This document shows, piece after piece, positions 5,142 to 36,900 of a stretch of DNA of 51,094 bases (the first letter of the stretch is position 1; each line of letters begins with the position of its first letter). Location of the stretch: IMG/VR virus record IMGVR_UViG_3300038307_000123, positions 1 to 51,094 of that record, one strand, 5' to 3'. Source of the stretch: a virus. Below the pieces are notes generated by a model, which was given only the letters and a program-made list of their open reading frames with translations, searched no databases and was not told the DNA's origin. Made by a program: the position numbers and the translations under genes.

Positions 5142-5433
5142 ATCTATAAACTTCCTTAATCATTTGCCTCGGGATTTTATTAATCATGCCACACTCTTCG
5201 GGTCCAATGCTATCAGTCAGGGATATAAACTCTTCGTTAGAGTATAGGATATATCCAAGTGTACGCATTAGCGGTGGCCTCTTTGATGCTTCTTCAATGC
5301 CTGCTTGTAGATCCATCCATCCGGAATCACCACATGCTTCGGCATCTAACCATACTACTTCTACTATAGTATTCTTAGCTGAAGAAGTATTCAGAGTCGA
5401 GCACTCGGGCTGGGTCAATTCTTCCGGATCCAT
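5116..5433 (-). CDS. conserved-looking phage protein (about 105 aa)
   Basis: The core (TIVEVVWLDAEAC...GWMDLQAGIEE...PPLMRTLGYILY...SLTDSIGPEECG...IPRQMIKEV) resembles a small protein of unknown function that I recall from many podo- and siphoviruses; it has no known activity. The start is uncertain: no ATG or GTG precedes the core outside the RNA polymerase gene, so the ATG at 5433, inside the last 59 nt of that gene, is used. A non-ATG start nearer to the polymerase stop is possible. Confidence 0.65.
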   Translation of the reverse strand: MDPEELTQPECSTLNTSSAKNTIVEVVWLDAEACGDSGWMDLQAGIEEASKRPPLMRTLGYILYSNEEFISLTDSIGPEECGMINKIPRQMIKEVYRYDRTRELE

Positions 5434-7819
5434 TGGGAATTGGTGGAGTTGGGAGCCCAAGATATTTTTCGACATCCTGTTTGAACGTTTCAAGTACATT
5501 CTCCTTATGTGTTTCTATAAACGCTAAACGCAAGCACTCATTCATGGTATCTATATCAGGAGCATGTACTCCATATGAGTCATGTATCATTGAGAATGAG
5601 TCGATGCCTTTAGCTAGTAATCTGATTAGGGTTAAGAACATATGTGCTGCATCTAAGCTGTGAATATAATTAGGTGCTATGCCTAGTTCCTGACCATGAC
5701 AGTTGACACCATCATAGAAATTAGCAAACACTAACTCAAACTTCTTCTTATTAAACAACTCAGTGTAAGACCGTCGTTGTCTAATGGGTTGGTATACATG
5801 TTCGACTATGAATCCAGAGGGGGTAGTCCATATGAGATGCTTCTCTGCTGCATTAGCTACACCCGCTACTTCCTTAAGCCAATCCTTTCCTTGGTTGGGC
5901 ATTGATAGCGTGGTCCCTAGCCCCTCTTGAACAGCACGAGCCATCTCTACAACAGCACCGCTTCTATTCTCACGAGGAACCCAGTCAAGGTGTCCCTCTA
6001 ACTTGAGGTACTTCTGTATACCGTAGAAGGTAAGACCATAGGCATCGCACATCGTGGGTCTCTTAACGACAGCACGCTCAATGCCTTCTTGCCAGTGATC
6101 CATAAAGGAAACAAACCAATCGAGGCCATCTTTATTCTCAGTGATGATGTCATTAGTTTGTTGTGCTATATACCCATAAAGATCTTGGGGCTTATCGCTC
6201 GATGTAACATTAGTTAAACCAGCTACAATCTCATCTCCCATAATAACTGACCAATGCTGCGAACCATTACATGCTCCGTCTAACTGCACGGGTAGCTGGG
6301 TAAGGCCATCCTTTCTTGCTAACTCTATACAAGCAGCCAGCCTTTGGAAGGATGGGTTCTTCTTTTCTTTATCTGATATCCATTCTCTATGTTCGTAAGG
6401 ATCTTCCGCAATATCCAACAACATCTGTAGGTTATCATCAACCCACTTAACTCTACTATCATAGGTATCTTTATCTTGATCAAAGAGATTTGCTGTGTGT
6501 ACTTTAAGCCAGTACAATCCCCTATCCGTTTGTTTCTTTGGTGTTTTAAATAGCAACAATCCCTTATCAAAGTCAGCTCCCTGTGGAGAGAGCAGCTCAC
6601 ATGCTGTGTATGCTCTCCCTCTGAAGTCTAGACTATATGGGTGATAGAACCAGTCATAGGGCATTAGCTTCTTGGCGAGGTGTAACCTCACTAACATACG
6701 ACACCTCTTCTGTTCCTCTCTATACCACTTACCCCATGTCTCTTCTCGTTCAGCCATCCACTTAGCTTGGTCTATCTTAGTTCCTTCTTTCGGGTACTCC
6801 CTTATATTGAAGCCCTCAAAATCATGGGATGGTAGGTTAGCGAGACAGGTGTTGCCCTTAAAGAAATTCTCCATCACCCCAAGAACCTTGGGATTAATAG
6901 TCCACTCAGTATTCTGAAGTGCATTCACTCCTTTCAGAACTAAGTCAGAACAGTGGTGTTTAATTCTATCCTCATCATCACGACTGTTGTTGACGTACCT
7001 CTTAACAGTAGGTTTTCTTAGCCACCGTAGGTAGTTTCCGCCGGGCTCATCTATTAGGTGATCCACTGGTGGTGCAATCATGGGTCTATAGATAAGAGAG
7101 GATAGCTCCAAGAGGTGATGCTTCCTATGTAACTCTCTTAGTATATCATCATTTAATCTAACAAAGATATTTTCTTTATTAGGTTTCTTAGACCAAGAAT
7201 TAATTTTGACTCTCTCCGCAACAACAATATCTGATAGCAAAGCAATGCGTACCAGAGCGTGGCCAAAGTCTTGCTTACCTTTCCTATCTATGGAGGGTAT
7301 GTCCCCTAGTTTCTTAGTGAAAGCAAGGCATCTCTTAGGTGACCAGTTCTTTGTAAACTTAGACTGTTTCCTCCAGTCATCCTTGAACTGTTCTTTACTT
7401 GCTTGATAAGAAACAATATTAATTACATCCTCAGCTACATCGCTTGCTAAAGTCTGAGCTCTTGCTCCACCAACCAAGGACGTAAGGCCTCTGTCACGAG
7501 ACCCATCCAAAGTTATCTTAAGTATGTTTCTAATAACAAGGTCAGCTGCTTTGAATGATCCAATACTTAGTAAGGGAATTAACCAACGGGGTGTTCGCTT
7601 TCTTTTAACAGCTTCATCAATCCAAACCTGATACAGGGGTTGTAGGTGAATAACACTAGCGTCTAGCAACTGTTGCTCAGGCTCACCTTCATCGGGAGAC
7701 CTATTAAAATCATTCCAGTATTTATTAACACCTTCCATAAGGAGATCCTCTTCCCACACAGCCTGAAGATTTTTTCTATCCTCTTGTTCTTGCTTGGGAA
7801 TACTCTTCCATTGATACAT
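5375..7819 (-). CDS. T7-like single-subunit RNA polymerase 1
   Basis: 814 aa, DNA-dependent RNA polymerase that transcribes phage genes from phage promoters. All catalytic motifs are present. The DFRGR motif (T7 WRGR) is near residue 398. Motif A is QLDGACNGSQHWS, with D514 equivalent to T7 D537. Motif B is KRPTMCDAYG, with K586 and Y594 equivalent to K631 and Y639. IAPNYIHSLDAAH is near 714. Motif C is IHDSYG, with D747 equivalent to D812. It ends LDSEYFFS, the usual aromatic C-terminus. Length is near T7 (883 aa) with a shorter N-terminus. The ATG at 7819 has GGAG 8 nt upstream. A class A promoter-like motif lies about 50 nt upstream. A second, divergent polymerase is encoded at 14260-16362. 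Confidence 0.97.
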   Translation of the reverse strand: MYQWKSIPKQEQEDRKNLQAVWEEDLLMEGVNKYWNDFNRSPDEGEPEQQLLDASVIHLQPLYQVWIDEAVKRKRTPRWLIPLLSIGSFKAADLVIRNILKITLDGSRDRGLTSLVGGARAQTLASDVAEDVINIVSYQASKEQFKDDWRKQSKFTKNWSPKRCLAFTKKLGDIPSIDRKGKQDFGHALVRIALLSDIVVAERVKINSWSKKPNKENIFVRLNDDILRELHRKHHLLELSSLIYRPMIAPPVDHLIDEPGGNYLRWLRKPTVKRYVNNSRDDEDRIKHHCSDLVLKGVNALQNTEWTINPKVLGVMENFFKGNTCLANLPSHDFEGFNIREYPKEGTKIDQAKWMAEREETWGKWYREEQKRCRMLVRLHLAKKLMPYDWFYHPYSLDFRGRAYTACELLSPQGADFDKGLLLFKTPKKQTDRGLYWLKVHTANLFDQDKDTYDSRVKWVDDNLQMLLDIAEDPYEHREWISDKEKKNPSFQRLAACIELARKDGLTQLPVQLDGACNGSQHWSVIMGDEIVAGLTNVTSSDKPQDLYGYIAQQTNDIITENKDGLDWFVSFMDHWQEGIERAVVKRPTMCDAYGLTFYGIQKYLKLEGHLDWVPRENRSGAVVEMARAVQEGLGTTLSMPNQGKDWLKEVAGVANAAEKHLIWTTPSGFIVEHVYQPIRQRRSYTELFNKKKFELVFANFYDGVNCHGQELGIAPNYIHSLDAAHMFLTLIRLLAKGIDSFSMIHDSYGVHAPDIDTMNECLRLAFIETHKENVLETFKQDVEKYLGLPTPPIPNGSGRIDPARVLDSEYFFS

Positions 7820-14259: not shown

Positions 14260-16362
14260 TTAGGAGTACATGTACTCGCTATCCAGCGAAGCTGTGAGGT
14301 CCATCTCTCGACGCACAGGTGGTAGCGGGATGCTAGCACCCAATGGAGCCGAGTGGATGAACTCGTTGCGTACCTTCAGGATCGCATCGCTTCCGTACAG
14401 TTCCACAAAGCACTTGTGGATCAGCTTCCGCAACGCATCCATCTTGGACGCAGTGGTGGCGAAGCAGTCATGGATGCAGGTGATTGGCCCATCCCAACGG
14501 GATACCACAAGGGCAACCAGTGCCGCGTCATAGCTATGAACAAAGTTCGGAGCCATGCCACGGACAACTTGGTTGGGGTCAACTGTATCAGCAGACTCAA
14601 CACCAAACTGGGTCTTCACCATGTTGCCCTTGGCATCCATGATGCTGATGCGCCGCTTCAAGATAGCGGTTGGCATCACTGCGACAAACCCCGAAGGGGT
14701 TGTCCACTGAGGACGAACGCCAGCTTCCGCTAACGCACGCCCTCCAGCCTTGAGGAACTTCATAATGGAGAGGACTCCACTCATCAGCTCCTCGCAGCTG
14801 GCCCAGATGCCTTCAGCCAAGCTCTTAGCCTCAATGCGGTCAGGCTCAATGCCTTCTTCGATCAGTTGATCGATCATCCCTGCAAGGCTGATGCCGTAAG
14901 GGATGCACATAACAGACTGCTTGACTTCAGCACGCTCACGACCACACGCCTCAGCGGTGGTGATGTACGGGTCATTCCGCAAGCCATCTTTCGATGGCAT
15001 CACATTAGTCGCAACAGCGACTGCTTCATCACCTGCCATTGCAGACAGGTGCTGAAGTCCCGAACAAGTTGCATCAACTTGAATCGGAGTTGTGATGGGA
15101 CCCGTCCCAACGAGGTCAAGTACCGCAGCCAATGCTGACCAACGGTCCTTGTCACCCGGATCGTTGCCCTTCCAGAAGGCAACAGGGTCCGCTTGCATCT
15201 CGTCGTACCGCTCATCACACCACTCGACACGCTCCTCGAAAGAAGCTTTATCGAAGCCAAACTTGTTGGCCGTGTGGATTTTCAACCAACGCAACGCCTT
15301 AGCGGTACGCCGACACCCCTTCGCATAGCGAAGAAGCCCTCGGTCAAGGTCCCAACCCTGAGGGTTGAGGATGTCACTCACGTAGTACACACGACCACGG
15401 TAGTCACACTTGACACAGAAGTGAAAGGTGTTGTTGAGCAGGCCTTCTGCCTCCTTGAGAGAAGCATCAGCCCGAAGGACCTTGCCATCAACCGCATCTT
15501 TGGATGAGCGGTAGCCTTTCAGTCCACGCTGGGCGAACTTCAAGACCTGCTCATTGATGCAGTACCCTACGGCCTGCATCCGATTAGCCATCTCCACCAC
15601 CATAGGTGAGGCGAGGCTATCGCCATCGACGAGGTTGTACGCCATCCATTTGGACAGGTATCCTCCACCCACACCTGCCTCGTTCCAATCCACAGGTTGA
15701 TGCACCATAGGTCTACGGATGGGTCGTGCCAAGGCACGCCCTTCCATGTTCCCATGAATGCGTCGAAGCCATGAGTCAGTCAGTGACAGGTAGAACTTGG
15801 AGTTCTCCTTATCCTTCTGGATGAGTCCAGATACAACGGCGACCTGCAACACCACCATCCCAATCCGGCGGAGTAAGTCTTGCTCGACAACGGACAGGTC
15901 CGTGTCGGACACCTCAAGGAACCGGACTTGGGAGTCACGGCTTGCCCACTTAGCACCACGCTTACGCAGTAGCTTAGTGTGCTCCTCGAAGAGGGCTGTG
16001 TTCTCCTGCTTTGCCCTAAGGAAAGCAAGGGTCACACGAAGACGCTCCACGAACCGGTCGAGAACGACCTGCTCAAGAGCAGTCTTACCCAAGACTTCAA
16101 CATCGAAGATAGAGGCAACCAGTTCGACTGCCAATATGTCAGGTGAGAGCACCTTCCACATTGGATACCAAGGCTGAGCCTTGGCGTAGTCTTCACTGAT
16201 GTCCACCCTAAGGGTGTCCGCCAGCGACTGGCCGACCTCATCTACGACAGCGACGGCAAAGCCGCCGTCTCCTCCGGCACGCTGAGCGTTACGGAATGAG
16301 CGGTTACGAGTTGGCTCTACAAGAGCCGCCTCACGTTTGAGTTGAAGGTCAAATGTATTCAT
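14260..16362 (-). CDS. T7-like single-subunit RNA polymerase 2
   Basis: 700 aa from the ATG at 16362, which has AAGGAGG 5 nt upstream; the frame opens 8 codons earlier but without a ribosome site. All catalytic motifs are intact. The DYRGR motif is near residue 320. Motif A is QVDATCSGLQHLSAMAGD (D430). Motif B is KQSVMCIPYG (K481, Y489). MAPNFVHSYDAA is near 603. Motif C is IHDCFAT (D632). It ends LDSEYMYS. The N-terminal domain is shorter than in T7 (883 aa), and the region corresponding to the specificity loop differs greatly from polymerase 1, so different promoter recognition is likely (inference). Base composition is visibly more GC-rich than polymerase 1. It is preceded by a 370-nt structured leader and followed by three class B elements. 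Confidence 0.96.
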   Translation of the reverse strand: MNTFDLQLKREAALVEPTRNRSFRNAQRAGGDGGFAVAVVDEVGQSLADTLRVDISEDYAKAQPWYPMWKVLSPDILAVELVASIFDVEVLGKTALEQVVLDRFVERLRVTLAFLRAKQENTALFEEHTKLLRKRGAKWASRDSQVRFLEVSDTDLSVVEQDLLRRIGMVVLQVAVVSGLIQKDKENSKFYLSLTDSWLRRIHGNMEGRALARPIRRPMVHQPVDWNEAGVGGGYLSKWMAYNLVDGDSLASPMVVEMANRMQAVGYCINEQVLKFAQRGLKGYRSSKDAVDGKVLRADASLKEAEGLLNNTFHFCVKCDYRGRVYYVSDILNPQGWDLDRGLLRYAKGCRRTAKALRWLKIHTANKFGFDKASFEERVEWCDERYDEMQADPVAFWKGNDPGDKDRWSALAAVLDLVGTGPITTPIQVDATCSGLQHLSAMAGDEAVAVATNVMPSKDGLRNDPYITTAEACGRERAEVKQSVMCIPYGISLAGMIDQLIEEGIEPDRIEAKSLAEGIWASCEELMSGVLSIMKFLKAGGRALAEAGVRPQWTTPSGFVAVMPTAILKRRISIMDAKGNMVKTQFGVESADTVDPNQVVRGMAPNFVHSYDAALVALVVSRWDGPITCIHDCFATTASKMDALRKLIHKCFVELYGSDAILKVRNEFIHSAPLGASIPLPPVRREMDLTASLDSEYMYS

Positions 16363-16374
16363 TTGTTCCTCCTT

Positions 16375-16387
16375 GGTGCTAAGCACC
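16375..16387 (-). promoter_or_regulatory. hairpin abutting the Shine-Dalgarno of RNA polymerase 2
   Basis: GGTGCTTAGCACC on the minus strand, a 6-bp stem ending 1 nt before AAGGAGG. Equivalent 13-15-nt hairpins with changed but paired bases sit before the ribosome sites of the genes starting at 18156, 18467 and 19150. Confidence 0.65.
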
Positions 16388-16758
16388 TAACGAAACGGGG
16401 ATGACCAGTCCCCAAACAGATGGTCGAAGACCCACGCTTAGCGGTAGCCAAACGTGGGGAAAAAAGCAGACCCACACATGTATGCACACGTATGCCCTGA
16501 GAGGCACGGAGAGCCCTCCTGAGGGCAGTTCTCCAGTCTACCCTAGGTGTACCCCTCTTTAGAAGGGATGCCCTTAGGGCGGATCCTAGGGATTCCTAAG
16601 GAATGTCCTCCAGATACTGCCTGAGGCAGGGGCTGAGGTAAGTCCAGCCCTCAGGGGTGGTCGCCAGTCCGAGCGGAAGCGAAGCCACCCCCACCCCGAA
16701 GGGTGGGACGCTCAGGGCTTAAGGCGGTTTAGTCTCCTCACCCTGATGAGGACCCGTA
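16388..16758 (-). other. long structured leader before RNA polymerase 2 (no gene)
   Basis: About 370 nt without a credible protein gene. On the minus strand it carries many hairpins: CTGCC-TCA-GGCAG, GGAGA...GCCCTC-AGG-AGGGC...TCTCC, GCCCTAAGGGC, CGTGT-GCAT-ACATG followed closely by CTGCTTTTTTCC, CCCACG...CGTGGG and GGGGA-CTGGTCA-TCCCC. The hairpin and U-run could terminate or attenuate transcription into the polymerase gene. Confidence 0.5.
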
Positions 16759-18156: not shown

Positions 18157-18169
18157 CTGTATCTCCTTT

Positions 18170-18182
18170 GGTGCTTAGCACC
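18170..18182 (-). promoter_or_regulatory. hairpin abutting the Shine-Dalgarno of the 112-aa gene
   Basis: Minus strand GGTGCTAAGCACC ending 2 nt before AAGGAG. It belongs to the covarying GRTGCT-N-AGCAYC hairpin set. Confidence 0.65.
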
Positions 18183-18198
18183 ATAGAGCTGAGGGTCT

Positions 18199-18257
18199 GC
18201 CTCGTCAGTGCCATGAGACCATTCATGACAGACTCCCCACTGCTGGGAAGTTTCGGC
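18199..18257 (-). ncRNA. type II hammerhead ribozyme (copy 1)
   Basis: On the minus strand, in order: stem II strand GCC; core GAAA (18254-18251); stem III ACTTCCC/GGGGAGT with a 6-nt loop; cleavage triplet GUC (18233-18231); stem I TGTCATGA/TCATGGCA with loop ATGGTC; core CTGACGA (18208-18202); stem II strand GGC. This is the circular order of a type II hammerhead, with every conserved core base present. Predicted cleavage is between 18231 and 18230. It starts directly after the stop codon of the 69-aa gene. An alternative pairing of GTCTGTC with GGCAGAC would inactivate it. Confidence 0.88.
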
Positions 18258-18467
18258 TTAGCGATTACGCAACTCACGCCTGAGCTCTTCGTAATGACTC
18301 GCTGGTGGTACAAAGTACCGATGATACATCCACCGCAATGCATCAGCAGCTATCCACAAGAGTGGTCGCCACAATGCTACCCAGTAGACATAAGCTCCTA
18401 CCACACACACTGCTACGAATAACAGAATAGTAATAGCCAGCAAAACAATGAGAATGAATTCAAACAT
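18258..18467 (-). CDS. small membrane protein (69 aa)
   Basis: MFEFILIVLLAITILLFVAV, then CVVGAYVYWVALWRPLLWIA. Residues ~3-42 are almost entirely hydrophobic, enough for one long or two short membrane helices, followed by a basic cytoplasmic-type tail (HYEELRRELRNR). Function unknown. The ATG at 18467 has AGGGAG about 7 nt upstream. Flanked on both sides by hammerhead elements. Confidence 0.75.
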   Translation of the reverse strand: MFEFILIVLLAITILLFVAVCVVGAYVYWVALWRPLLWIAADALRWMYHRYFVPPASHYEELRRELRNR

Positions 18468-18480
18468 AACGTATCTCCCT

Positions 18481-18495
18481 TGATGCTGAGCATCA
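18481..18495 (-). promoter_or_regulatory. hairpin abutting the Shine-Dalgarno of the 69-aa gene
   Basis: Minus strand TGATGCTCAGCATCA, a 7-bp stem ending just before AGGGAG. The same fold as the GGTGCT hairpins, with compensated base changes. Confidence 0.65.
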
Positions 18496-18510
18496 TAGAG
18501 CTGAGGGTCT

Positions 18511-18569
18511 GCCTCGTCAGTGCCGTGAGACCATTCACGGCAGACTCCTCATTGCTGAGGAGTTTCGGC
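18511..18569 (-). ncRNA. type II hammerhead ribozyme (copy 2)
   Basis: Same order as copy 1: GCC, GAAA (18566-18563), stem III ACTCCTC/GAGGAGT (perfect), GUC (18545-18543), stem I TGCCGTGA/TCACGGCA (perfect), CTGACGA (18520-18514), GGC. Stem I and stem III differ from copy 1 by paired substitutions. Predicted cleavage is between 18543 and 18542. It starts 1 nt after the stop codon of the 76-aa gene. Confidence 0.9.
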
Positions 18570-18570
18570 G

Positions 18571-18801: not shown

Positions 18802-18834
18802 GACGAACCTCCTTAAAATAGAGTTCGAGGGTCT

Positions 18835-18891
18835 GCCTCATCAGTGCCGTGAGACCATTCACGACAGACTCCCATCGCTGGGAGTTTCGGC
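18835..18891 (-). ncRNA. type II hammerhead ribozyme (copy 3)
   Basis: GCC, GAAA (18888-18885), stem III ACTCCCA/TGGGAGT capped by a GCGA (GNRA) tetraloop, GUC (18869-18867), stem I TGTCGTGA/TCACGGCA, CTGATGA (18844-18838), GGC. It has U at the free core position N7, where copies 1 and 2 have C. Predicted cleavage is between 18867 and 18866. It starts 1 nt after the stop codon of the 85-aa gene. Confidence 0.9.
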
Positions 18892-18892
18892 G

Positions 18893-19452: not shown

Positions 19453-19815
19453 TTAGGTAAATATCTCAGGTGGAGCCTTCTTAACAGTCTCTCCTCCCAA
19501 CGCAACCACAGGATCCTTTGTAGGAGCCTGAGATGGCTCAGGAGCCGTCTTAGAAGTGGGAGGTGGCTGAGGGGTCCCTTGAGCCTGAGGTGGCTCAGGA
19601 GCCGTCTCAGGAGCTGTGGGCTGTAGGGTCATTTGCTCTACTGCCCTCTTTGGGTCATCTATTGGCATGGGAGTATTCTGAGGTTTCTTAATTGGTCCTA
19701 CCTCAAGTAGAGCATTAATAAACTGTCCAATGTCTGTTCCGTCTAAGAACATCTGAGATTCTGTGGGAAGACTAAAGGATTCTCTGAACCTCGGATCCTT
19801 TCTATAATCTTTCAT
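19453..19815 (-). CDS. Pro-rich small virion-associated-like protein (120 aa)
   Basis: The N-terminal ~55 residues look folded (MKDYRKDPRFRESFSLPTES, then GTDIGQFINALLEVG). The rest is Pro/Ala/Gln/Thr-rich and disordered-looking (APEPPQAQGTPQPPPTSKTA). The ATG is fused to the giant gene's stop (TAATG), so it is co-translated with it and is the last late gene. Function unknown. Confidence 0.7.
   Translation of the reverse strand: MKDYRKDPRFRESFSLPTESQMFLDGTDIGQFINALLEVGPIKKPQNTPMPIDDPKRAVEQMTLQPTAPETAPEPPQAQGTPQPPPTSKTAPEPSQAPTKDPVVALGGETVKKAPPEIFT
19524..19607. repeat. 57-bp imperfect direct repeat inside the Pro-rich gene
   Basis: A 27-bp unit at 19524-19550 recurs at 19581-19607 with two mismatches; the period of 57 bp is 19 codons, so the reading frame and the Pro-rich repeat are kept. 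Confidence 0.6.
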
Positions 19816-22800
19816 TATTTCCTACCTCCTAAGTATTTCTCTTCTAAATGTTTTCTTCTTTCCTCTGCTAATGCCCCAACATCCATCTGAGGAGATTCTT
19901 GACCGGTTTGCCTACTAGGTCTATTCTGAACACCTAAGGGATTTGCTCGGAAGGAATTAGCTGAGCCAGTACCCATTATGTCTCCATGATAATAATTGGC
20001 TGCTGTTTGTCCAGCAGCTCTAAACAAGGCTTCCCCAAAGAATGGAATGAACCTCGCTAAAGCAATAAGACCCTCCGTTGCCTCTTGGTCATCCTTCCAG
20101 TTTATTGTCCCAAGCATAGAGTCCATTGTCTTATAGGCAGCTGCTATTGAGATAGGTGCATAGTCCTGCCACCTAGCTTGGTTTCCTGCTAATGTACTTA
20201 CTGCCGCTGTTACTAGCTGAGCAAGGTAGCCTCCGTATGGACCTAATCCGGGGAATCTTGCGAGGTATCTCATTGTAGTCATTATGGGATTTTCCCTAAA
20301 CTCCTCATCAATCTCTTCCCAATCCTTACCAGCAGCTAACTGAATAAGCATCATATATGCCATATCCAATACCAAATGTGTTCCGTGCTTTAAAGCAAAC
20401 CCATGAACAGACATATTGCTTGCATCTCTAATCATTCGTTGAGCAGTGAATGCTGTTGGGAAAGAACGATACATATTAATAATCTGAGACCACGGCGACC
20501 CATCTGTATTTACATCCATAGGATTAGGATCAATAGCGTACCTTTTAATAAATCGTCTATCAAACTCTCGTAAAGAGTTAGCCAGACTAATCATAGCATT
20601 CTTCTCGTCCTTGGATAATCCTTCTTTACCTACAGCCAATCGAGCTATATCTCCAACACTGTAGACTCCATTCCAACCATCTGTATCGTTTAGAATCTCT
20701 TCCATCTTTCCGGGTATGACTTGACCATCTGAAGTTACTGTTCCCATGTAATCGGCAGTCATCAGTCCTGCTTGCTGCATCTCCAGCATAACTCTCCAGT
20801 TATGTCGGAAGCTAGTACTTGGGACTTTAGATTGTCGTAGAATCTTTATCCACTCTGCTTGGGTCTTAGGTCTCTTAGACTCCACAAAGGTTTGAAGGTC
20901 TTGTCCTGTAAGACCTTGATCCATTCCTTCTTTTTTCATAGCGGCATCATGGGCATCTAAAGCATGAACAGCTCTAGCGAATGTTCCCTTACGTAAATGC
21001 TTCATGATATAGCGTCTTCCTTGAAGAGCAGCAGCCGATCTCATAGCAAGGTCTGCTGCCTTAGCAGTTCCTTTATGCCCTCTTTGCGACTCCTGCACCC
21101 ACCTCTTTGGATGAAGAATATGCTTGTCTCCTGCTTCACTAACACTGACATCTCGCATGAAGGCATTAGCTCCGTCCGAGTCTCTCAATGTATACTGAAG
21201 AGTATATGCCAATTCAGTAGCCATCTCAATACGCTTACGTTTACTGAAAGATTTCATTAGAATCCAAGGCTGTCTCCAAGTACCCATGACATCCCCTAAA
21301 CTAAAGATACCATTCATTGCTGTCAGTGTTCCTTCTACTGTTTGAATAGCAGTTCCTAAGTTACTTCCGTAGATAAATCTAATGATACCATGCCCCGCAG
21401 TCGCCAGCATTCGGGGAGCTGGGTCTGCATTAGCCGCTTCTCCATGTCTGGCTCCGAGTCCATGAATTACATTCCGCTTTCTTCGAAGGACTTTAAGGGT
21501 ATCCTCAGTATTTACGGTTCTTAACATAGTGCCTCTATGTTCTTGAGCCCTGCTAGTTTCTTCTCCGTGTTGATTGAATAGTCCATCATTCTGTAAGTCT
21601 TCCATTATATTAATCATATCGAGGAAGCTTACATTAGAATCGCCAGTTATCTCATTAAGGACTAATCGCTCAGAAGCATCAATCCCGATGCCTCTAGTTG
21701 TTCCTTCAACTAAATCTATGAAGTCCCACGTAAAGAAATCTCGAAGAGCCTCGTTCTCGTAGATCTCTCTAGCAGTAGGCATATGGGTATCGTGCTTATG
21801 TGGGAAGTAAGCGGATGAATTAGACTTCTGATATAAGACCCCTGCATGCCACTGTGCTGGGGTGTTTACTGGGTTCGCTCTATCGTGATGTCCTTCGGTA
21901 TGAATCTCTTCACTAAAGGGTTGGCTATCTGTAAACGTATCTACTAATTTTTTCTTTCCTTCTTGGTTATGCTTTAACCAATTAAGTCTCTCTGCTACAG
22001 CCTTAGCATGTGTTCCTCTTCCCTTAAGAGATTCATTATATCTCCGCCTCATTACATCCTTCTGGCCCGATGTTAAAGTATCGCCAAAGATGCTCTCAAT
22101 CGATGATCCCTCTTGTCGGGTATGATGTACCATATCGGAAATAACAAGACGGCGGTAGCGACGAATAGAAGCTGGATCTATTTTTCCATCCTTCCAATCA
22201 GAACGAATCTGTTTAAAAGCTTCTGATCCAGTATCGACTGCTCCCTTAGCTTGGGATTCAGCATATCTTTTCATAGCTAACATATCTATAGCATTTGTAT
22301 ATACTCCGTTGTCAACTTCTGAGGCTCTTTCCCAATCGTTATCAAAAGCATCTTCATCAGTAAGGAAGTAGTTAGGCATCCACGCTTGAGCAAATAGCGT
22401 TACATTATTAACATTGGAATGACTATCAACTAGCCTAGACTTTGCTTCGATAACATCTTCTAATACAGACATCATACCTGAAGCCTTTTCCTCTGAAACA
22501 TTAATACTCTTCTCAAGCTTAAGAGGAATACGAAGATCAGATCTTCTATTTTCATCAGAGGTAATCTTACCTACCTGCTCACCTCGTTCTAACAGAGTAT
22601 CAACAATGCCGGTATAAACCTTTGCAAGCTTCTGCATATCTTGGATTTCTTCTGGAGTAAACCCATCCAATTCAAGTTGGGCTTCATCTTTAATACCAAG
22701 AACCATTTCCCGTGCTCCTCTATTGATGTCGCTAAACTTACTCATGGGCTTATTTGGATTTACGAATTGAGCCCCTCTTTCTACCGAAGAAGAATACTTA

Positions 22801-25800
22801 TACATAATGTCACTTACTTCTCTAGTAATGACTTGACCAAACATATCCATTTCTCTTCGGACTTGTCCTACTGTCTTAATCCCTAATCTATTTGCGATAG
22901 CTCCTGTATTCGCAACGACATTATCTTCTAACATAAGACTCATCAGTAGTCCCCAAGCATCTGGATTTAACCATGTAGCAGCAGCTTCGGAAGGACCAAC
23001 AGCCCACTTCTGACAACCCTCGATGAAACCGTTAAGCCCTAATCCTCTGCCTCCTAGGTATCTAATGATACCGGCGAGGTTCTCTGAAATCTTATCCCCA
23101 AACTTATATGAAGCATGTCTTAGAACGTAGGACATAAAGACTTGTTTATCTCTTCGAGTAGCGAGTTTACTAAAGTCAATCTTAATGTCAATACTGCCAT
23201 CAGGATTTTCTACCTCGTAAAGAGCTCCCCGTTCTTTCAAGTCTAAGTATCCCTCGACATAATCTTGCCTAGTTAGTCCCACAGCATCCTTACCATAATC
23301 AGCTTCCTGAATCTTTGCTTCTCGACTTTGGATATTCTTCTGAATTCTCGGCAAGATAGAACGAATTCTTTCTAATTCCGCAGCCTCTTCTGGAGTGATT
23401 GTTCCATCTGCTTCTTTTCCTACTAACTCTCCAGCGTTATTCTGGTGTGTTCTTTCTTGTCCCTTTAGTCTATTCAGTCTTTCTAAGTTATCGACATACT
23501 CTGCCTCAGGCCTATCAATCCTTGTTACTGGATATGCAACCTGAGTGGGGTCTTTATGGACCGGTCTAGTTGCCCCTTCGTGGACATAGGTTACGTTTCT
23601 TTCCATATCTTGTGAGGGAGTAAATGATTTTTTACCAGCATCCATATTAAGACCCATGATACTATCGGACAAGGACTCCATTCTGGAGTACAGGTTCGGA
23701 TCACTTTCTTTATATCTATGAGTGACCTGTCTAATATCGTGGAGCAACTTACTATAGAACCCACCAATTTTTGCAAAGACTTTATCAAGCAGGCTCTTCT
23801 CACCAGAATACTTTTGTTCAATCTCTGATAAGACACCGGTATCATATAGGTCGCCTCTCTGCATTTTATATGCAGTGTATTGAACCATAAACTCTTCGGG
23901 GTTTTTGACGTAGTTGTTGTAAAGGTTTTCTGCTTTGGCGGTCATTGTGCCACCGTGGAATGCTTTAACTAAGTCCCACATCATCTGCTTACCCCGAGTA
24001 GTTCCCAACATTTGAGAAGCCTCAGACCATTCAGTACCACCTTCTCTGATAAACTTCATAACACCTATGTGTGCTAACTCGTGAGCAATGACATCTACAA
24101 TATCTGGAGTACTCTCACCAATCTGTTCTGTATCGAACTTAATAATAAACTCTCCAGACTTATACAGAGCTGCTCCAAGCTTGTCCTTAGTCAATGGACT
24201 TTGAATCAAGGATAGGTTCTTAACGATATCTGGGTTCTTAATGATTGCTTGAGACAGCATTACACGGAGGATGTCCTTCTGCTTAGCAGAAAGATCAAGT
24301 CCCTGTATCTGTGTAGCTAGAGTATTAATCTGATGGTCATAGTTGAAGTCAGAACTTGGTCCATCAATGCCCTTGAGATTCTCAGTGAATCCCTCATGGG
24401 TAGAGAACTCTATGGGCTCAACGCTATGAGCGTATTCGAAAGGATCGTTTACGCCTAAAGCATCTTCTGAATCTACACGAGTCATTTGAATCACAGCTTT
24501 GTCAACAAGGAATCGTACTTTCGACTCTTCCATCCCAGTTTCTTTAGCAACCCCTTCGACATCTACTTTATCATAGATATCTTCTGCATCCGAATCAAAC
24601 TGACTTTTAGACCCGACCATAGTCTTCTTAGTTTCCAATCTCATGGAAGCTTCTAGTGCTTCTCTTACGGGGTAGTACATAGGATTATCAAAGTTTCTTG
24701 TATCCAATACTACGTTCATTGCTCTAATCATATCATAAGCTTTATTCATACTTGCTTCTGGGTCATGAAGAGGTTGAAATACTTCGATAGTCTCAGGAGT
24801 TACACTAAAGTCTCTCCAACTATCTTTATCCGAAGGAAGTCTTTCATCTTTAATCATGAACTCTCTTCGCCCACGCATTTCCTCCATCCTAAGAATAATG
24901 CCAAGAGTTACCGCAGTCTCCATGTCTTCTCTCATCAATGACTCAAGCTTATCAACAATCTCCATTTCCCCACGATGACGTAGCGTTTGGATTCTCTGGA
25001 GCAGCGGAACTAACGAAGCGGTTACATAAGCATGGTTTGTTCCTTGAGCATCTTGTTCTGCAAGAGTTGGGAATAAATAAGACGAGGCTTTCGTAACTCT
25101 ATGCCTTGCTCCTCTATATCCTTGGAAGCCGTGATCAACAGTCTGGAGCTCCGCTCCTCCTGCTTCTGCCTGTATCTCTTCAAGAACATCAGTAAGAATT
25201 CTTTCGTTGTTCCTTTGATCGAAGAAGGGACGGTTGGCTAGGTTATCCGAATGTGAAGTATGTTCATTTCTTTTGATATTAAGGAGGTTGGCTTCCTCCT
25301 GATATCGAAGACCCTTGTGGTTATTCAAAGAGTTGAGTGCCATCAGTATAGCTTCTGGTGTCAGTCGATATCTCCAAGTACTTCCCTTTACTCTGGAATG
25401 TGTACCAACAGTTGCCCCTCTTCTCATCTCATGAATATTCTCACGCTGAGCTTTTGCAGCTCTCTGTGGTTTGCCGATTATTCCATTATATGATCCCTTG
25501 TCATCTGCATGAACAAACAAGTAGAAGTTCCCAATGTTTCTAAAGGTTCCAAGTTCATATGCTTTATTATATACCCACTCGGAAGCGGCTCTGTCTCGGA
25601 TCTGCCATGCTCTACGAGAGAGAGGACTGTCTTCAGTCTTGTCCATCTCCGCAAACATATAAGCAACCTGATCATCGACTGTATGGAAATCATCGCTAGT
25701 CGGAGGTCTTCCGTTGTCTGCAATAAACTTCTCAATAAGCTTCTTACCTTCTTCAACCTTCTCGTCAATAGCTGACCTCACATTTTCATCGGCAAGGACT

Positions 25801-28800
25801 TGGTTTTGAATATCAAACACATCCTGTCCCTGAACCGCTAGAGGCAATACAGCCGTGTCGCTAAAGTCTATCCCGCCCTCAACCCACTTCCTTTTCTCAG
25901 GGTCCCAAACCATTTCTCCTTCTTCAAGGATGATATGGGAAACAGGAACCATAGGAAGAGTAAAGGCTTCTACGTTATTAGTTCTTTCTTTATACTTACC
26001 TAAGACATCTCGATAGGTATTGTTCTTCTGCTTTCTTGCTTCGGCTTGTGCAAGTTCACTTGCTTCGTGTGTCATAAGAGCTTCCCAGAAGTCTTTCAGC
26101 CTCTGCTCTGAGATATCTCCGATCTCCCCAGACCAACCAAGCTTGCCGTTGATTCTATCAAACTCTGCTTTCTCTTCTGGAGTAAAGTTCTTTTCTCTTT
26201 CTGCCTTCCACTTTCTAGAATTCTTTTTGATATTTCTTTTAGCAGACTTAAAGACAGAACGGTATACTCTCGGGTTCTCAAATCCCGGAACAAACGTAGG
26301 CAATCCCTTGGAGGGAAATAGCTCTTGATATCTCCAGTCGTATGTTAAGGCATCTTGTTCCTGTTTGAATAATCCCCAAACATCATCAAGGTATGCAATA
26401 CGCTTAGTCTCAAGTTCAATCTCAGCAATCTGTTCCGCTGTGAGTTTGTCAGATCTTTCGATAATAGCTCTGACCTTCGAGTACTCTCGCCCAAGATTTT
26501 CCATATGTCTATTCTGGATTTGATGTAGACGCATGACATAGAACAAGTGAGCAACATGTCCCGCCTCAAGTAAATGAGTGAGTCCTGTTTCCTGAGCAAA
26601 GGCAGGCAACGCTGAACGAAGCTTAGAAGCTAGTCGCATATGTCCTACCTTATCTACCATAGCTAGTTCATTTGTCCAATCAATTTCTTGCCAAGGAATA
26701 ATAGGCATCTCGCTCTCATCCCAGATGTGAGCAAAGCCTCTGGCTGACTCTGGAATTACTGACTGCCCTTCGACATGTATCTTCTTCCCTTGTCGTGCAA
26801 AGGCTTCTTCTCTTCTAGCGAGGTAAGACTCCTGTTGTTCAATGTCTCGTAATACTTTAATCTTTCTTAACTCAAGAATACCTCTATCGAAGAAATCGAT
26901 GTCCGCCATCTTTGGTCGGAATGCTGCGAAGCCTGCTGCATTGCTAGTATCAATCTCAAGAGCATTGCCGCCAAACCTTCGGCCCCCCTCTTCTACTTGA
27001 AGGAAACGAACTTTGGAAGGAAGTCCTTGATTCTTCTCAATAGCACCGAGCTGTTTAGCTGCATCTGATTCAGGATCGATCTCTCCATCCCATCCTCTCA
27101 TGTCCGAATCAAGTTGTTCTTCTAAGTCTCTACCCTTCTCCCAATTCTCAGCTTCTGTATCAGAACGTTCTTTCCATGCTGAGTAGAATTCAGCATCGGT
27201 TTTATCTTCGAAGTCCCCAAACATTGGCTTCTGTTCGCCTGCAAGCCTGAGCTGGAAGTCCCGAACAATCATAGCATCGATCTCATGGATAGCTTCTGCT
27301 CTTGATTCGGCTGGGTCCATTCCCGCCTTAACCCGCTCTTGGTGCTTAGCGTAGAATGGATTATTTTTAAGTTCCCACATACCCTGAGCATTCTCATTTT
27401 GACTGTAGGTTCTGCTCCAAGAAGTGTTATGGGTCTTGAATCCAAAGTCATAAGCTGGGTGGAAACGATTACCTGCTAAGTCAACAGCGAAAGTATGGAA
27501 CCAAACATGATCCATTGCCCCGCCCTCTCCCTCTTTCATGAAGAGGTCTTCTTTGGTCGCATGTCTCCATCCAAGACTTTCTTGTTCAACCCTACTTGTT
27601 TCAAGCAATCCTCGTGCAGTTCTGTTGACTGTATTCATTGCCTTCAGTAAAGGCATAGTTCTATAGGCTGCCTCATCATAACAGAGGATCTGAAGATAGT
27701 CGTGATACTCTTCACTTGATAATTGATTAGCGGTTGTAGCTCCTCTTTCTACAAGGAATTGCTTAGCCTTCTGAATTCTTTCTGCATAGAACTCCGCTAC
27801 TTTTTTAGGATCTTCTCCGGTAGCTTCTGCAATAAATTGAATACGTTCCTTTAGTCTTCTGTCTAAGACAGGTGCTGACCCATCCCTCTTAATTCTAAGT
27901 TCATCTTCTGTGGCCATATCATGACTTCTCTGGTACGCATCCCATCGTTTCTTTCCATTCTCTGCTAATGGCTGGGACAATAATTGAATTACCTTCTTCT
28001 TTAAATCAACTCCATTAACCGTCCCAAGTTCCAATGCCTTATCCAGTACGATGTTTCCTTCAATCACGCCCTTGCTAACTAAGAACTTAGTGAAAGACTT
28101 TATTTCAGCCGAAGAGAATTCTCCCTTCCAGCCATTCTTTTCTTCGCTTAAGAAAGCATTCAGATCATTTCCAATAGCTTTCTCTCCAGCAGAGTATAGA
28201 CGAGTCATGATAGGCATCTTCCAGAATTCTCTAAGCTTCTTATTCCTATCCGCTACAATATCATCTTGCCCTTCCATATCTATAGCATACATTGCGTCAT
28301 AGAATTTTTGGAGATGTACTAATTCTTCCGAGCTTAGTCCACTCTTCTCAGGATCAATAGCTCCTTCTCTAAGAACTTTCTCTAAAGATTCTTTTGTAGA
28401 TCTCGCAGCTTTAACATACTCATCCGTTTGGTAGAGCCCTAGTCCCTTACCAATCTCTAATAAAGCTCGGCTAGTATCGGGATGATCTCTATCAAACATC
28501 ATAGCTCTGAAGTGATGCTTACCGTTGAAGGACTTATCGAAGTAATTCTTAGTTGAGAATAAAGCTTCTACTGGTGTCCCTTCATGTTTATTTATATACT
28601 CTAAGCCTCGGTCTAGTGCTTGCCATGATGTACCCTCTAACGCAGGGTAGGTCATTTCCCAACCCAATACAACTGACAACCCACCTAAGTTTACCGCCGC
28701 TGACGGAGTACCAGCAGACATGGCTGCTTCTTTATGGTACACCGCTACAGTAGGATTATCATCAATAAGAGCTTGACGCTCTTCTGGAGTAAGGTCAGAT

Positions 28801-31800
28801 ACTTCCTTGGGTGTTCCATCGTCATTCAGAAACTCTGTCTGGTTGTCAAAGATTTCCATGACATCCATGAAGAACATCTTATCGCCTTGAGCCAGAGTTT
28901 GAGAGTCATGAATAAAATCAAACAATGCCGCAGGCATATCTAACATAGCTTCTATCTGTCGTTGCCGATGCTCAGCCATATTCGGAGGAGAGGTAAAGGG
29001 AGTTCTGTTTGTAATATCAGGCATTAGATGCATACCTAATGGTGTCATTCCTAGTAACTCTTCTAAGGGAAGCCCTTCCTTCTCTTTATCCGCAGCCCAC
29101 TCGAAGAATGCTTTGACTTCTTCTGGAGTTAAAGTATGGTTTAAGACATGCGTTATTCTTGCTCTAATCTTAAAGTCAGCTTTAATATCGGCTAGTACCT
29201 GTGCTCTATGTGGAGCAGCATGATTGAGTTCTCCCTCAACCAAGGTTACAGGCTTCAGACTCGTATTGACTGGGTTTCTTTCGGTAAGCCTAGTATCAGT
29301 ATCAAAGTCCTTAAGCTTTGTGGAATCGATTGCCCTTGCTCTTTTAGTTCCTTCATCCTGATGAACAAGAGTATGTGCAAGACCCTTGCCTACTTCAGTT
29401 GCTGGTTGCCAATCTAATGTTCCATTACCAAAGTCTGATAGACTTAATTCATACTTAGCCAAGAACTTATCTAGAATTAGCCCCAGTACTTCTTCATAAA
29501 AGGCTTCAGACTCAGAGAGCTTCTCGTCTGGATGCTCCTGAAGATACTTCTTTATCTTTGCTCTCTCCAGATCAGTGACCTCAAACTCTTCCATGAGTCG
29601 GTTGATTCTCCTCGGTGAAGCAAGTGTTACTAGACGTTTGATAGCCTCTTGCCTTACTCTACTTACGTAGTCTGGTTCCGAAGAGTGTCTTCCAATGAAG
29701 GATCTCGTTGATCTATCTAATTCTAATGTATAGCCGTTCTCATTCCATAATTCTTCTGTAACTTCTTTAATAGCGGTTTGATCAGTTTCAATATCCTTAA
29801 GAGTACCATAGAGATCATACCGACCTGTTTGGTTATTAGGGTCCTTTAGCCTTGCTCTGGCTTCATTCAGCATTTCTCTAGATACTAAGGTATTGGTTTC
29901 ACTACTAAGTGCAAGGAGAGCAGCGAGGTCATCTTGAATAATTCCGATATCATATCGTGCTAAGTGTTTATTAGTTTCATTGAATGGACCTGCTTCAGGG
30001 TTTACAATCGCTTCAGAGAATAGTACATGTAGTCCAATATCCCTCAGTTCTGGAGGGAAGGCAGCCAGAATAATATCCTCAGATGCAGTACCTACTCTAC
30101 TATCTTCTTGTGTAGGTCTCGTAGCTTCTGGACCAAACAAGGTCTGTCTGACTGTTGTTAGATTCCTAAAGGCATCGTTGAGAAGTTGCTCTTCATTTTC
30201 TCTAGTATGTCGATTGATTTTCACCTTGCCGTCTTTAGTTTCCTTCGCTGCATCCTCAGGTGATTTAGTGATACGACCTGCATGAGCGTCGGGATGGATG
30301 TCTCCAATAGGAGTACCGGCGTTACTAGGAATAGATTCATTGTTAAGCTCGACTAATTCTTCGCCTGTTCTTTCGATTGTTTTCTTAAATCTCTTAAGCT
30401 CTAATACTCTATTAGTTTGATGTCTTTTCCATTCTCGGATAATCTCAGATGTCTCTTCTTGTGTAAACTCTTCCTTACCTTCCCACTCTTTGTTGAGGTT
30501 GTTCAATGCTTTATCTCTACCGTTCTTGCCCGCAAACAGGAGATCAACAAGTTTCTGTCTTGAGATAGTTTCATTAGTCATGAAGTTATCTTCTAGGAGA
30601 GTTTCAATTAATTTCTTTCTCTCGGCTAATGCCTCTAACTGAGATGCTACATAAGTAGCAACCCTGTATTGCATAGCTCCTGTACTTCCTTCAGTCCCTT
30701 GGATGAGATCAATGAGATCGATTCCTGAGGACTCATCTATAACACCGGCTTGTTCCCTGATGTTATCCCTGAGCTCTACAATGCTCGGAGACTTCTTCTT
30801 CTTTAACTTTTTCTTGACTGCCGTAAGAGCCTTCTTCTGTGCCTTAAGTTTCTTTCCAATCGCTTTCTTCTTTGCTTCGTGTTTCTTATATTCTTGTGCT
30901 GCTTCTTCTCGATTGCTCTTACTCTCTTTGCGATTGTTCATCTTAGTTAGAATAGAAGGCATAATCAAACCAAGAGCCGTTGCTTCTGCATCGAGTTCCC
31001 CTACTTCCTTATCGATTTTAGATTTCTCTTGGAAGTCTGGATCGTTTGTTTCAAGTTCTTCTGTTAACTCGGCTTCTCTCTTCTGAAGGGCTTCGAGTCT
31101 ATCCTCTAATGCTCTCTTCTTGTCGAGAAGATCCTGCTTGGCTGATCCCGCAGCATCTCTTTCCGCTAGCTTCTTCTTCATATCCTCAACAGTTTTCTTC
31201 TCTTCATCAGTCTTCGCACCTTCTTCAAGCTGCTCAACTAAATCTGATTCTTCTATAATAACTTCGCTAGTATCGCTTGTGCCTTCTAAGTCACTCTCCA
31301 TTCCATCGAGGATGTCAATAGCCTCTCCCAACTCTGAAGGAGCTCCTTCTTCTAAGCTTTGTTCAATGAGATTCTCTTTAGCCTGAGCAATTCCCTCTGT
31401 CTCAGATAAGCTAGCTTTGTCTGCTGTGCCATCTCCAAACATTGCATCCGCATCCGACTCAAGTTGTTCTTTGTCTGTCCTAGTCTGAGCTTTTTCATTA
31501 GCCGCTTTAAGTGCTTCTACAGCAAGCTCTCTCGCCTTTAGTCCTTCTGTTTCCGGTTCTGCATTTTCAATGGCTTCTTCTTGTTCCGTAATAACGTCTG
31601 TGACATCTCGGCCTTTCCAGTTAGGATTCTGTACTGTGACTGTTCCACTTCCGTCCTTTGCTCTAATAACCGCTTGACGAGCACCCTTAAAGTCAAAGTC
31701 GATTGCTGCTTTTTGAATCGCTGCGTCAACCGCTTCTACTATCGTCCCTAAGGATTCTTCTTGTAAAGTTCGAAGAGTAGACTCTTTAATTATCTGACTC

Positions 31801-33977: not shown

Positions 33978-36900
33978 TTATGGTGTTGGGACTGGTGAAA
34001 GGGGTATAGGTTGGGGCTGCTGGCTTTGAGCATATGCTCTATCCAGCTCTTGGACATGGAATAAATACTTAGTTTCTCCTCCGGTACTTGGAACCCCCCA
34101 CTGCTCTGGTCCAATGTCTCTGCTTGTTATGGGTAGTTTTACTGTTCCGGGTCCTATTCTTATTTGTAGCGTAGGCTGTGCCTCGTCATTGATAAAGCCA
34201 CGGTCAATATCTAGAGTTGAGAAGTCTACATTCATATCGATGTATTGGAATCTCGTAGGATCCCCATTGATTCTTTCTTTATGCCACTTGTTTAGTTCTC
34301 GGTGTCCTCCAAAGCTATTGTCTACTAAGAAGTGATTAAACCCTGACCATACAGCTAAGGAGGTCAGTGTTCCATCTTCACCTTGGTCACTAAATTGTGG
34401 TAACTTGAAATACGAAAGTGCTTTCTCTCGAACTGCATCTGTTTGGGCCGTTGTCATTATCTTTGGATCGGGACCTATAGGATTGCCTGATGCATTATAT
34501 ATCCGCGATCTACTAGGCTCATACCCAATCTCCGCCATAAACGTTGCGTTTCTTTCGATAATAACATTTTCCATCATTTCAAGAGCCATCTCTGCTTGGG
34601 AACCCGTAGGATACCCTACAATATTGGTTCCCGAGTCTCTGTTTATTTGATAGACAGCTTCTGAGTAAGCTCTAGCTGTTATTCTAAACTGGGCTCTTAA
34701 TGTATCGCCTTCTTTATTCTGAGTTGCGGGGTCATCCGCCCCAATGACATCGCTCATAGAAGGTAAGAACATTCTTTCTAGTTGAGATGGATTTGATAGT
34801 GAGTAGCTTGATTTCATTGGACCCATTCCTGAGGAAGTTTGTGGAACAAATACACTTCCTGCTACGGTTACTCCATAAACGTAAGGCATACTTGCGTTGC
34901 CGAACTTAACTGATCCATTAGGACTGACGAAAGGTCTCTGTCCCGGAATCCAGTCTTTATCGTCTGGTAACCAAGGAGGTCGTTCTTGAAGCAGCCAATG
35001 AGCACCTGTATCTGTAACCTTATCAAGCCATCCCTGTTCTTCGGGAGACAGATGGTTGTAAAGAGATATCTTTTTACTTCCTTGTCCTACTGTAGTAATT
35101 CTATCTATTGTTGTGATATCATCTCTTCCTCTAGTGTCTTCTAAACCATTGAAGTAGTCTATCGAAGCATTCCAATTATTAGTGTATCCGATCCTCGTCA
35201 TAGGAGGAGCATCTTTAGGCCCGGGAACAGAAGCATCCCCCAGAAGAGAGGAATCAGTTGTGGTGAGATTGGGCCCCATTTCATTAATAAACTCTGAGGG
35301 CCTACTATTAGGATTCCATGTTCCCTTATTATCAGTCCATCTTCCGGAGCCCTTTCCTCCAATGTCCATGCTTTCGTGCCATCTCGACATAGCGGAATGG
35401 GGCATCTGTGCGTGTCCTGCTGGGTTCTCAGCAGAGTTCATAATTCTACTTAGTCCGGTAGAAGGACTGCTCGGGTCAATATAATAATGAGAGGAGGCTC
35501 TATCTGATCCAGAGTTTACGAGATTTGATAATCGGATTCTTTCTGATAGTTGTTCCGTACTGTGACCGGTACTTAATTTTTGGGCAGCATAATACTCCCA
35601 CATATCCTTCACGCTCCAGCCTGATTCTTCTAGCCGAGGAACCAAGTTGCCTCCTCTGCTTCCGTTCTTATCAGCAAATGGAGATTCGAAGCTAGTGTCG
35701 GCCAGCATAATCCGCTTAAGCACGGCATCATTCAATACTGTATACTGTCCAGTTCCTCTTTGTTGTACCCATCCGCCTTGATTGTCGTTTTCAGAACCAT
35801 CCCATATCATCTCTACCTTAGTATGATGGTTGTATTCTAGATCCTGCTGTAAATGCTCACTAGCTAATGGAGAAATCTGTGCTAGAGTCATAGCTAAGAT
35901 CCTGCCCGGACTGCTAACATGATAATCATCGTCCGAATAACTTGCATCAGTCCAATAACTCGAATGCTCATCAATGAAGTCTGGCCCAAATAAACCTTGG
36001 GCAATGTATGATGCTGCGTGTCTGCTGGCTGTAGGTAATTGTCCAGTGAGATGTTTCCCTCTCCCTACTGATTTATTCCCCTCTTTATTTTCTCCATTTA
36101 CTACTATCAGTGCGGATAAGAGACCGGCACTAGCTGAAGTGATTCTATTAACTGCGTCAGCTGGATTAGTTTCAGCCATAGCGGCATGCATTACAGGTCC
36201 CCAGTGACCTTTATATTCATGCAGGAAGTGGGCTGTCCATGAAGTTGTTGCTTTAGTTTTCAGACTATTGGAGAGAACTGTCATAGCGTGTTGGTATCCC
36301 TCTTCAGTACTTCTCGCATCCATAGCATGTAATACAGCAAGAGCAGGTCTAAGCCGACTTATTTCATCTGGCTGGATCCCATCTTCTATGATGCTTTCAA
36401 CGACATCTATGGATTGATTACGCATATCAGTAATCGCTCCAACTAGGTTTGATTGATGATCGCTGCTCCAGTTTGGTTGGTGTGTTTGACCTTCTGAAAC
36501 TAATCCATCCATTAAGAAGTTTACTTTTGCTGCCGCATGTTCTGGAGTAAGACTCCAAAGATTCTCTGCATTCTTAGGAGTAGCTATCCATGCATCTCCT
36601 GCGTGGAGAGATGCGGGATTTGCTTTCCAGTCCACAAGGAGCGTGTCTCTAACGGCTTGGGAGTATCCATTATAGTGTTCTCCGGGATGCATGTCATATC
36701 GCTTGTGCCAATTTTGCATATCGTCAAACATAATACCGCCAATTAACTCACCGGTCTGAGGATCTAGAGTGATGACATCATCCATAGTTACTTGTCTGCG
36801 TCCTCCGGACCCATCGTCCATATACCAACTACCTTGTGATATTGCACGATCATAGAAAGCACCAGCCTGTGCGATCCCTTCATTCCCTCTTCCATAGTAT

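Follow-up and report, generated by a model that had tools for sequence, protein, structure and literature searches.

Why should self-cleaving ribozymes in a phage genome begin where the upstream genes end? The question is raised by three type II hammerheads in the window, by which we mean the whole stretch of DNA that was analysed (51,094 nt, IMG/VR record IMGVR_UViG_3300038307_000123). They alternate there with short genes on the minus strand, all in the same direction: 93-aa frame, copy 3, 76-aa frame, copy 2, 69-aa frame, copy 1 and 112-aa frame (Table 1). Type II hammerheads have been described in bacteria and prophages, and the window copies belong to the same family (RF02276) and share its core and open stem II (Perreault et al., 2011; PMC3088659). 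In the same paper, clustered hammerheads are proposed to divide phage transcripts into mRNAs of one operon or one gene. The idea of transcript cutting has thus already been put forward. The available part of that text makes no mention of a stop-codon register, of a stop-to-hairpin distance or of a hairpin added to type III hammerheads, unlike what we describe here. Nor did a search of the open-licence literature, by title and start of abstract, find a treatment of the stop-codon register of phage hammerheads, of a common distance or of an added hairpin.

Table 1. Ribozymes and neighbouring open reading frames (ORFs) in the window.
Feature	Position	Strand	Details
ORF, 93 aa	18893..19174	(-)	Stop TAA at 18895-18893; directly upstream of hammerhead copy 3
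Type II hammerhead copy 3	18827..18892	(-)	Rfam RF02276, 53.3 bits; stem III hairpin 18885-18868, 7 nt past the stop; predicted cleavage after C18867
ORF, 76 aa	18571..18801	(-)	Between copies 3 and 2; stop TAA at 18573-18571
Type II hammerhead copy 2	18503..18570	(-)	Rfam RF02276, 56.2 bits; stem III hairpin 18563-18544, 7 nt past the stop; predicted cleavage after C18543
ORF, 69 aa	18258..18467	(-)	Between copies 2 and 1; stop TAA at 18260-18258
Type II hammerhead copy 1	18191..18258	(-)	Rfam RF02276, 54.1 bits; stem III hairpin 18251-18232, 6 nt past the stop; predicted cleavage after C18231
ORF, 112 aa	17818..18156	(-)	Downstream of copy 1; PHROGs families of unknown function, best phrog_30656, E=1.2e-08
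ORF, 174 aa	16759..17283	(-)	TAA end 7 nt before the pistol ribozyme
Pistol ribozyme	16683..16751	(-)	Rfam RF02679, 44.7 bits (cut-off 34.5); between the 174-aa ORF and the second RNA polymerase gene (T7-like)

All three window copies exceed the RF02276 cut-off of 37 (53.3-56.2 bits). In the Rfam alignments the core (CUGANGA, GAAA and GUC) is intact, stems I and III are closed and stem II is open; an alignment of the three copies gives the invariant columns. A pseudoknot between the stem I loop and the tail 3' of stem II (GGUCU with AGACC) is invariant in the three copies, and its variants are compensated in relatives (UGUCU/AGACA in L007, GGCCU/AGGCC in L008), as judged by eye. On the minus strand, copy 1 reads TAA-GCC-GAAAC, with GCC at 18257-18255, and copies 2 and 3 read TAA-C-GCC-GAAAC. 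The sequence and Rfam agree that the ribozymes start 0 (copy 1), 1 (copy 2) and 1 nt (copy 3) after TAA, which bears out the sequence-only reading that they lie 0-1 nt after stops (TAA-GCC-GAAA and TAA-C-GCC-GAAA); the coordinates given in that reading, 18198-18260, cover copy 1 only. Because the ribozymes start so close to the stop, stem III begins 6-7 nt after it.

When the three copies are aligned, similarity begins at the stop and runs as far as the start of the following gene, including its ribosome-binding site and ATG; outside this span the copies differ. They are paralogous, duplicated cassettes, whose shared register counts as about one event and therefore by itself proves little. Outside the window the register is a range, as shown below. 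A small hairpin lies between the ribozyme and the ribosome-binding site of copies 1 and 2 (18157-18190 and 18468-18502, minus strand), with bases that have changed yet remain paired (GGTGC/GCACC and GATGC/GCATC); copy 3 is without it. The 93-, 76- and 69-aa frames have no PHROGs or Pfam match at E <= 0.01. Elsewhere on the minus strand, the phage has two separate genes for T7-like single-subunit RNA polymerases (5375-7819 and 14260-16386; 814 and 708 aa, both with phrog_414 as the best match) and a single open frame of 4715 aa (19815-33962), which adjoins a frame of 1817 aa (33978-39431). Among named phages, distant blastn found no counterpart of the window region; the only matches were short ones to the 1817-aa protein, in records annotated as lysozyme, endolysin or hypothetical.

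The register was therefore sought in other viruses. Viral contigs of IMG/VR were scanned for type II hammerheads using patterns of ribozyme letters only, with nothing upstream of stem II, for three stem II sequences. Stems I and III were required and near-copies were dropped, which kept 125 of 133 GCC, 131 of 153 GGC and 50 of 59 CCC matches, or 306 in total; one earlier filtering kept 120 of 128 rows. The few CGC, GTC and GAC matches are outside this set, and the sets are samples, with counts made among the matches listed. At least one stop triplet was present at an offset of -1 to 5 nt in 259 of the 306 dereplicated ribozymes, as against 50-84 of 306 in windows of the same width shifted upstream (among the matches listed). 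By offset, from -1 to 5, the stop triplets numbered 24, 92, 42, 30, 36, 40 and 31 over a background of 9.6 per offset, and just past offset 5 they numbered 9, 11, 16 and 15 (n=306, among the matches listed). The type II register is thus a range (-1 to 5), not a single value. The upstream proteins fall into 235 families, with a median offset of -1 to 5 in 161 of them, again among the matches listed.

A held-out stem II sequence (GTC, 154 of 160 kept) had a stop at -1 to 5 in 135 of 154 matches listed, compared with 27-42 in the controls, and 82 of the 108 listed that could be scored by ORFs of at least 80 aa were in register. The upper edge at offset 5 was sharp in the first type II sets and soft in the held-out set, among the matches listed. 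Stop-triplet counts and their shifted controls accompany the ORF counts because calling genes by the longest ORF misassigns short genes: several seemingly "far" type II rows plainly end in a stop adjoining the ribozyme. The type II ORF table excludes 33 of the 306 rows, which were too near the end of the locus. Sequence accounts in part for the lower edge of the type II range, as no stop fits within GCC-GAA. The ribozyme may also shape the choice of stop. TGA is rare among offset-0 stops (10 of 92, versus 45 of 107 at offsets 3-5; p = 6e-7), and an A is present two bases before stem II in 109 of the 148 type II copies that have no stop at -1, 0 or 1 (both among the matches listed). Since this A is conserved, the last bases of an offset-0 stop seem to serve also as a conserved part of the ribozyme.

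In the named phage Bcep176, gp32 as annotated ends 2 nt before stem II and 9 nt before stem III. PaP3 is said to carry a variant hammerhead (PMC3088659); it was found neither by a relaxed scan nor by Rfam at the gathering score, and was not used. Two contigs (L020 and L797) have 7-9 type II hammerheads inside a few kilobases. The register has exceptions. In six annotated R4-like Streptomyces phages it holds in just 14 of 37 type II copies: the offsets are 0-5 (14 copies), 8-17 (15), 24-47 (5) and about 260-270 (3). The cultured Streptomyces phages R4 and Hank144 have several type II copies each. Nineteen of the 20 copies at offsets 8-47 were viewed by eye (L638-L643). Between the stop and the ribozyme, the repeated element TGTGCAAGTG was present in 7 of the 14 viewed copies at offsets 8-17, with a near variant in 3 more, and all four copies at 42-47 had TTGTGC-17 nt-TACTGT, which resembles a sigma-70 promoter. 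A translated gene upstream is thus not always required for the ribozyme.

Type III hammerheads are arranged differently. They do not abut stops: in a first set (28 of 28 kept), 0 of 28 among the matches listed had one at offset 0-4. In a larger sample, 132 of 176 matches were kept after near-copies and flanks under 260 nt were dropped. Under a strict rule (6 or more base pairs, 4 or more of them GC, and a gap of 0-3 nt to the ribozyme), a separate hairpin precedes the ribozyme in 70 of the 132, compared with 0-3 of 132 at shifted positions, and the gap is 0 nt in 64 of these 70 (all among the matches listed). Folding finds the hairpin in 94 of 132 matches listed versus 63 of 396 controls; those without it thus number 62 of 132 by the strict rule and 38 of 132 by folding. 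The same pairing test is positive in 7 of 306 type II and 2 of 108 type I hammerheads, among the matches listed, and in 1 of 69 pistols. A matching hairpin on the downstream side of the ribozyme is almost never present (type II, 1 of 306; type I, 0 of 108; type III, 1 of 132, among the matches listed). In a held-out type III set (64 left once those resembling copies in the earlier set were taken out), the hairpin was found in 38 of 64, with 0, 0 and 0 in the controls (among the matches listed). Of the 70 added hairpins listed, 65 are distinct, and therefore it is the structure that is kept, not one sequence, at a cost of roughly 15-30 extra bases. Judged from sequence, the added hairpin is found mainly where the upstream fragment would be without a ribozyme hairpin.

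The added hairpin of type III and stem III of type II have a similar distance from the stop. Measured from upstream ORFs of at least 80 aa, stem III lies 5-11 nt from the stop in 140 of 204 type II loci, and the added hairpin does so in 49 of 57 type III loci, with 1 of 57 at 0-4 nt (among the matches listed). Terminator-like hairpins of the same loci were 5-11 nt from the stop in 40 of 243; theirs is a crude set, with 678 of 734 sites kept and 243 lying close to the end of an ORF of at least 80 aa. The distance recurs across genes: the 64 type III upstream proteins belong to 37 families, and the median is 5-11 nt in 29 of the 37, among the matches listed. In type III the lower limit is unforced by sequence. 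The held-out type III set had 19 of 30 stops at 5-11 nt, under the 70% threshold fixed in advance, and repeated the lower edge, with 0, 2, 1, 0 and 2 stop triplets at distances 0-4, then 14 at 5 (both among the matches listed). The hairpin that would be left on the upstream mRNA thus appears to track the stop. Counted from the first base in the P site, the bacterial mRNA channel is reported to take up 11 nt (PMC7282821). When the stop occupies the A site, the channel would therefore also contain about 5 nt of the RNA beyond it, and a hairpin at 5-11 nt would stand at or in front of the terminating ribosome. The same geometry would place the stem II strand in or at the channel; the sequence-only reading had put it inside the footprint of a terminating ribosome.

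The 5-11 nt distance is not universal, since type I hammerheads and pistols do not keep it. The type I set (108 of 112 kept, a sample) has a modest stop peak at offsets -2 to 0 (8, 18 and 25 of 108; background 5.4), and stem II is mostly reached 11-16 nt past the stop (both among the matches listed). An ORF of at least 80 aa ends at the UGA of the type I core itself in 10 of 108 matches listed, versus 76 of 2136 control TGAs (L455, L494, L509, L483 and others); some genes may thus stop inside the core. For pistols, a pattern scan gave 105 matches in 101 stretches, 89 with P1, and 69 were left after near-copies and short flanks were removed. P1 often starts less than 5 nt from the stop, and stops are only weakly enriched, with 49 at offsets 0-6 over a background of about 4 per offset (n=69). 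No pistol was found in hammerhead-bearing viral records (0 of 50).

Why, then, do the ribozymes stand where they do? The hairpin falls on the upstream fragment in types II and III, and is added where it would otherwise be absent; we therefore read the cassettes as devices that make ribosome-flush, hairpin-capped mRNA 3' ends, and hold this to be somewhat more probable than its negation. Under this model, type II hammerheads would cut the polycistronic phage transcript between genes. After the predicted cleavage the upstream fragment would keep a hairpin, which is stem III in type II and the added hairpin in type III. The upstream mRNA would be left with its stop codon, about 5-11 nt, the hairpin and a short cyclic-phosphate tail. 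Such an end would amount to a minimal 3' UTR with the hairpin flush against the terminating ribosome. Structure at the 3' end is described as shielding bacterial mRNA from exonucleases (PMC3997798), and the hairpin may protect the end of the message with neither host processing enzymes nor a terminator. The register would be set by ribosome geometry: a hairpin at less than 5 nt would need melting for the stop to be decoded, and one farther away would leave naked RNA. In type III, where the upstream fragment would be without a ribozyme hairpin, a separate one would have been added at the same distance. Nearness to the stop would necessarily bring stem II of types I and II within reach of the ribosome, and any delay of cleavage caused by translation would be a side effect.

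Translation could instead be the purpose of the arrangement, as the sequence-only reading suggested: a ribosome at the stop would cover the stem II strand and GAAA and delay cleavage, and poorly translated messages would be cut faster. The first paired strand is indeed often within reach of a ribosome at the stop in type I and type II hammerheads and in pistols, and for one plant virus it is already known that a ribosome at the stop codon opens a 3' structure, with a change in output as the result (PMC6265322). The spacing behind the proposal is real and ribosome-sized, and recurs at hundreds of unrelated genes. As the driver of that spacing, masking is not supported, since in type III it is the hairpin that keeps the distance: the type III ribozyme lies beyond the inserted hairpin, out of reach of the terminating ribosome, and the constant spacing in types II and III belongs to the hairpin, not to stem II. 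Some type II copies of R4-like phages, moreover, have promoter-like sequence between the stop and the ribozyme, or sit 8-17 nt off. Gating by translation, which could apply to types I and II, we regard as unlikely. A broader version would have a single rule of docking with the terminating ribosome, in which types I and II are held open so that cleavage reports translation, type III is insulated by its hairpin, and topology amounts to a choice between gated and constitutive processing; this we consider quite unlikely.

Three other explanations were considered. If genomes are simply compact, ribozymes would be confined to short intergenic gaps and the stop would be the nearest allowed boundary. 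The cassettes are short on both sides, and the following gene begins, with its ribosome-binding site and start, at a median of about 25-28 nt, as compaction predicts; yet terminator-like hairpins of the same contigs are widely spread (the 40 of 243 given above), pistols are weakly enriched at stops, and type III spends its extra bases on a hairpin, which together make compaction alone improbable. It is very improbable that the hairpin serves to shield the ribozyme against ribosomes that go on past the stop by readthrough, sliding or rescanning. The type III hairpin is near the channel entry and directly abuts the ribozyme in most listed cases, as shielding would have it, whereas in type II the exposed stem II strand comes before the hairpin and would be left unshielded. 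The 0-nt gap also bears on the 3'-end model, since stacking of the added hairpin on stem III could be a folding aid instead. A mobile or duplicated cassette whose left end merely happens to be a stop codon would account for the similarity of the three window copies from the stop to the next start. That explanation was already weakened by the diversity of the type II upstream proteins, with their 235 families among the matches listed, and by an offset that varies from -1 to 5 and so is not copied exactly; we think it extremely improbable.

The arrangement has parallels in other systems. At RNase III sites between the early genes of T7, the phage polycistron is cut and the upstream mRNA retains a hairpin. 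The window ribozymes resemble them in the intergenic cut and in the hairpin on the upstream mRNA, and the window phage has T7-like RNA polymerase genes; the T7 sites, however, need the host enzyme, whereas the window RNA is predicted to cut itself. Hammerheads in the 3' UTRs of rodent Clec2 genes are close after the stop codon. The window copies are like them in this position and unlike them in that the Clec2 ribozyme is discontinuous and found in mammals, not in a phage polycistron. In the 3' UTR of TYMV, an upstream domain holds the coat-protein stop (PMC6265322), so that, as in the window, the stop is at the edge of a folded 3' element and within the footprint of the ribosome. TYMV is a eukaryotic virus with no self-cleavage, and the effect of the ribosome that was measured there is a possibility here.

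These observations bear on what phage hammerheads do for their hosts' viruses. Gating by translation, if true, would mean a ribozyme that reads ribosome traffic. The shared distance and the added hairpin point to formation of the 3' end of the upstream mRNA, which would explain the placement of these ribozymes in unrelated genomes.
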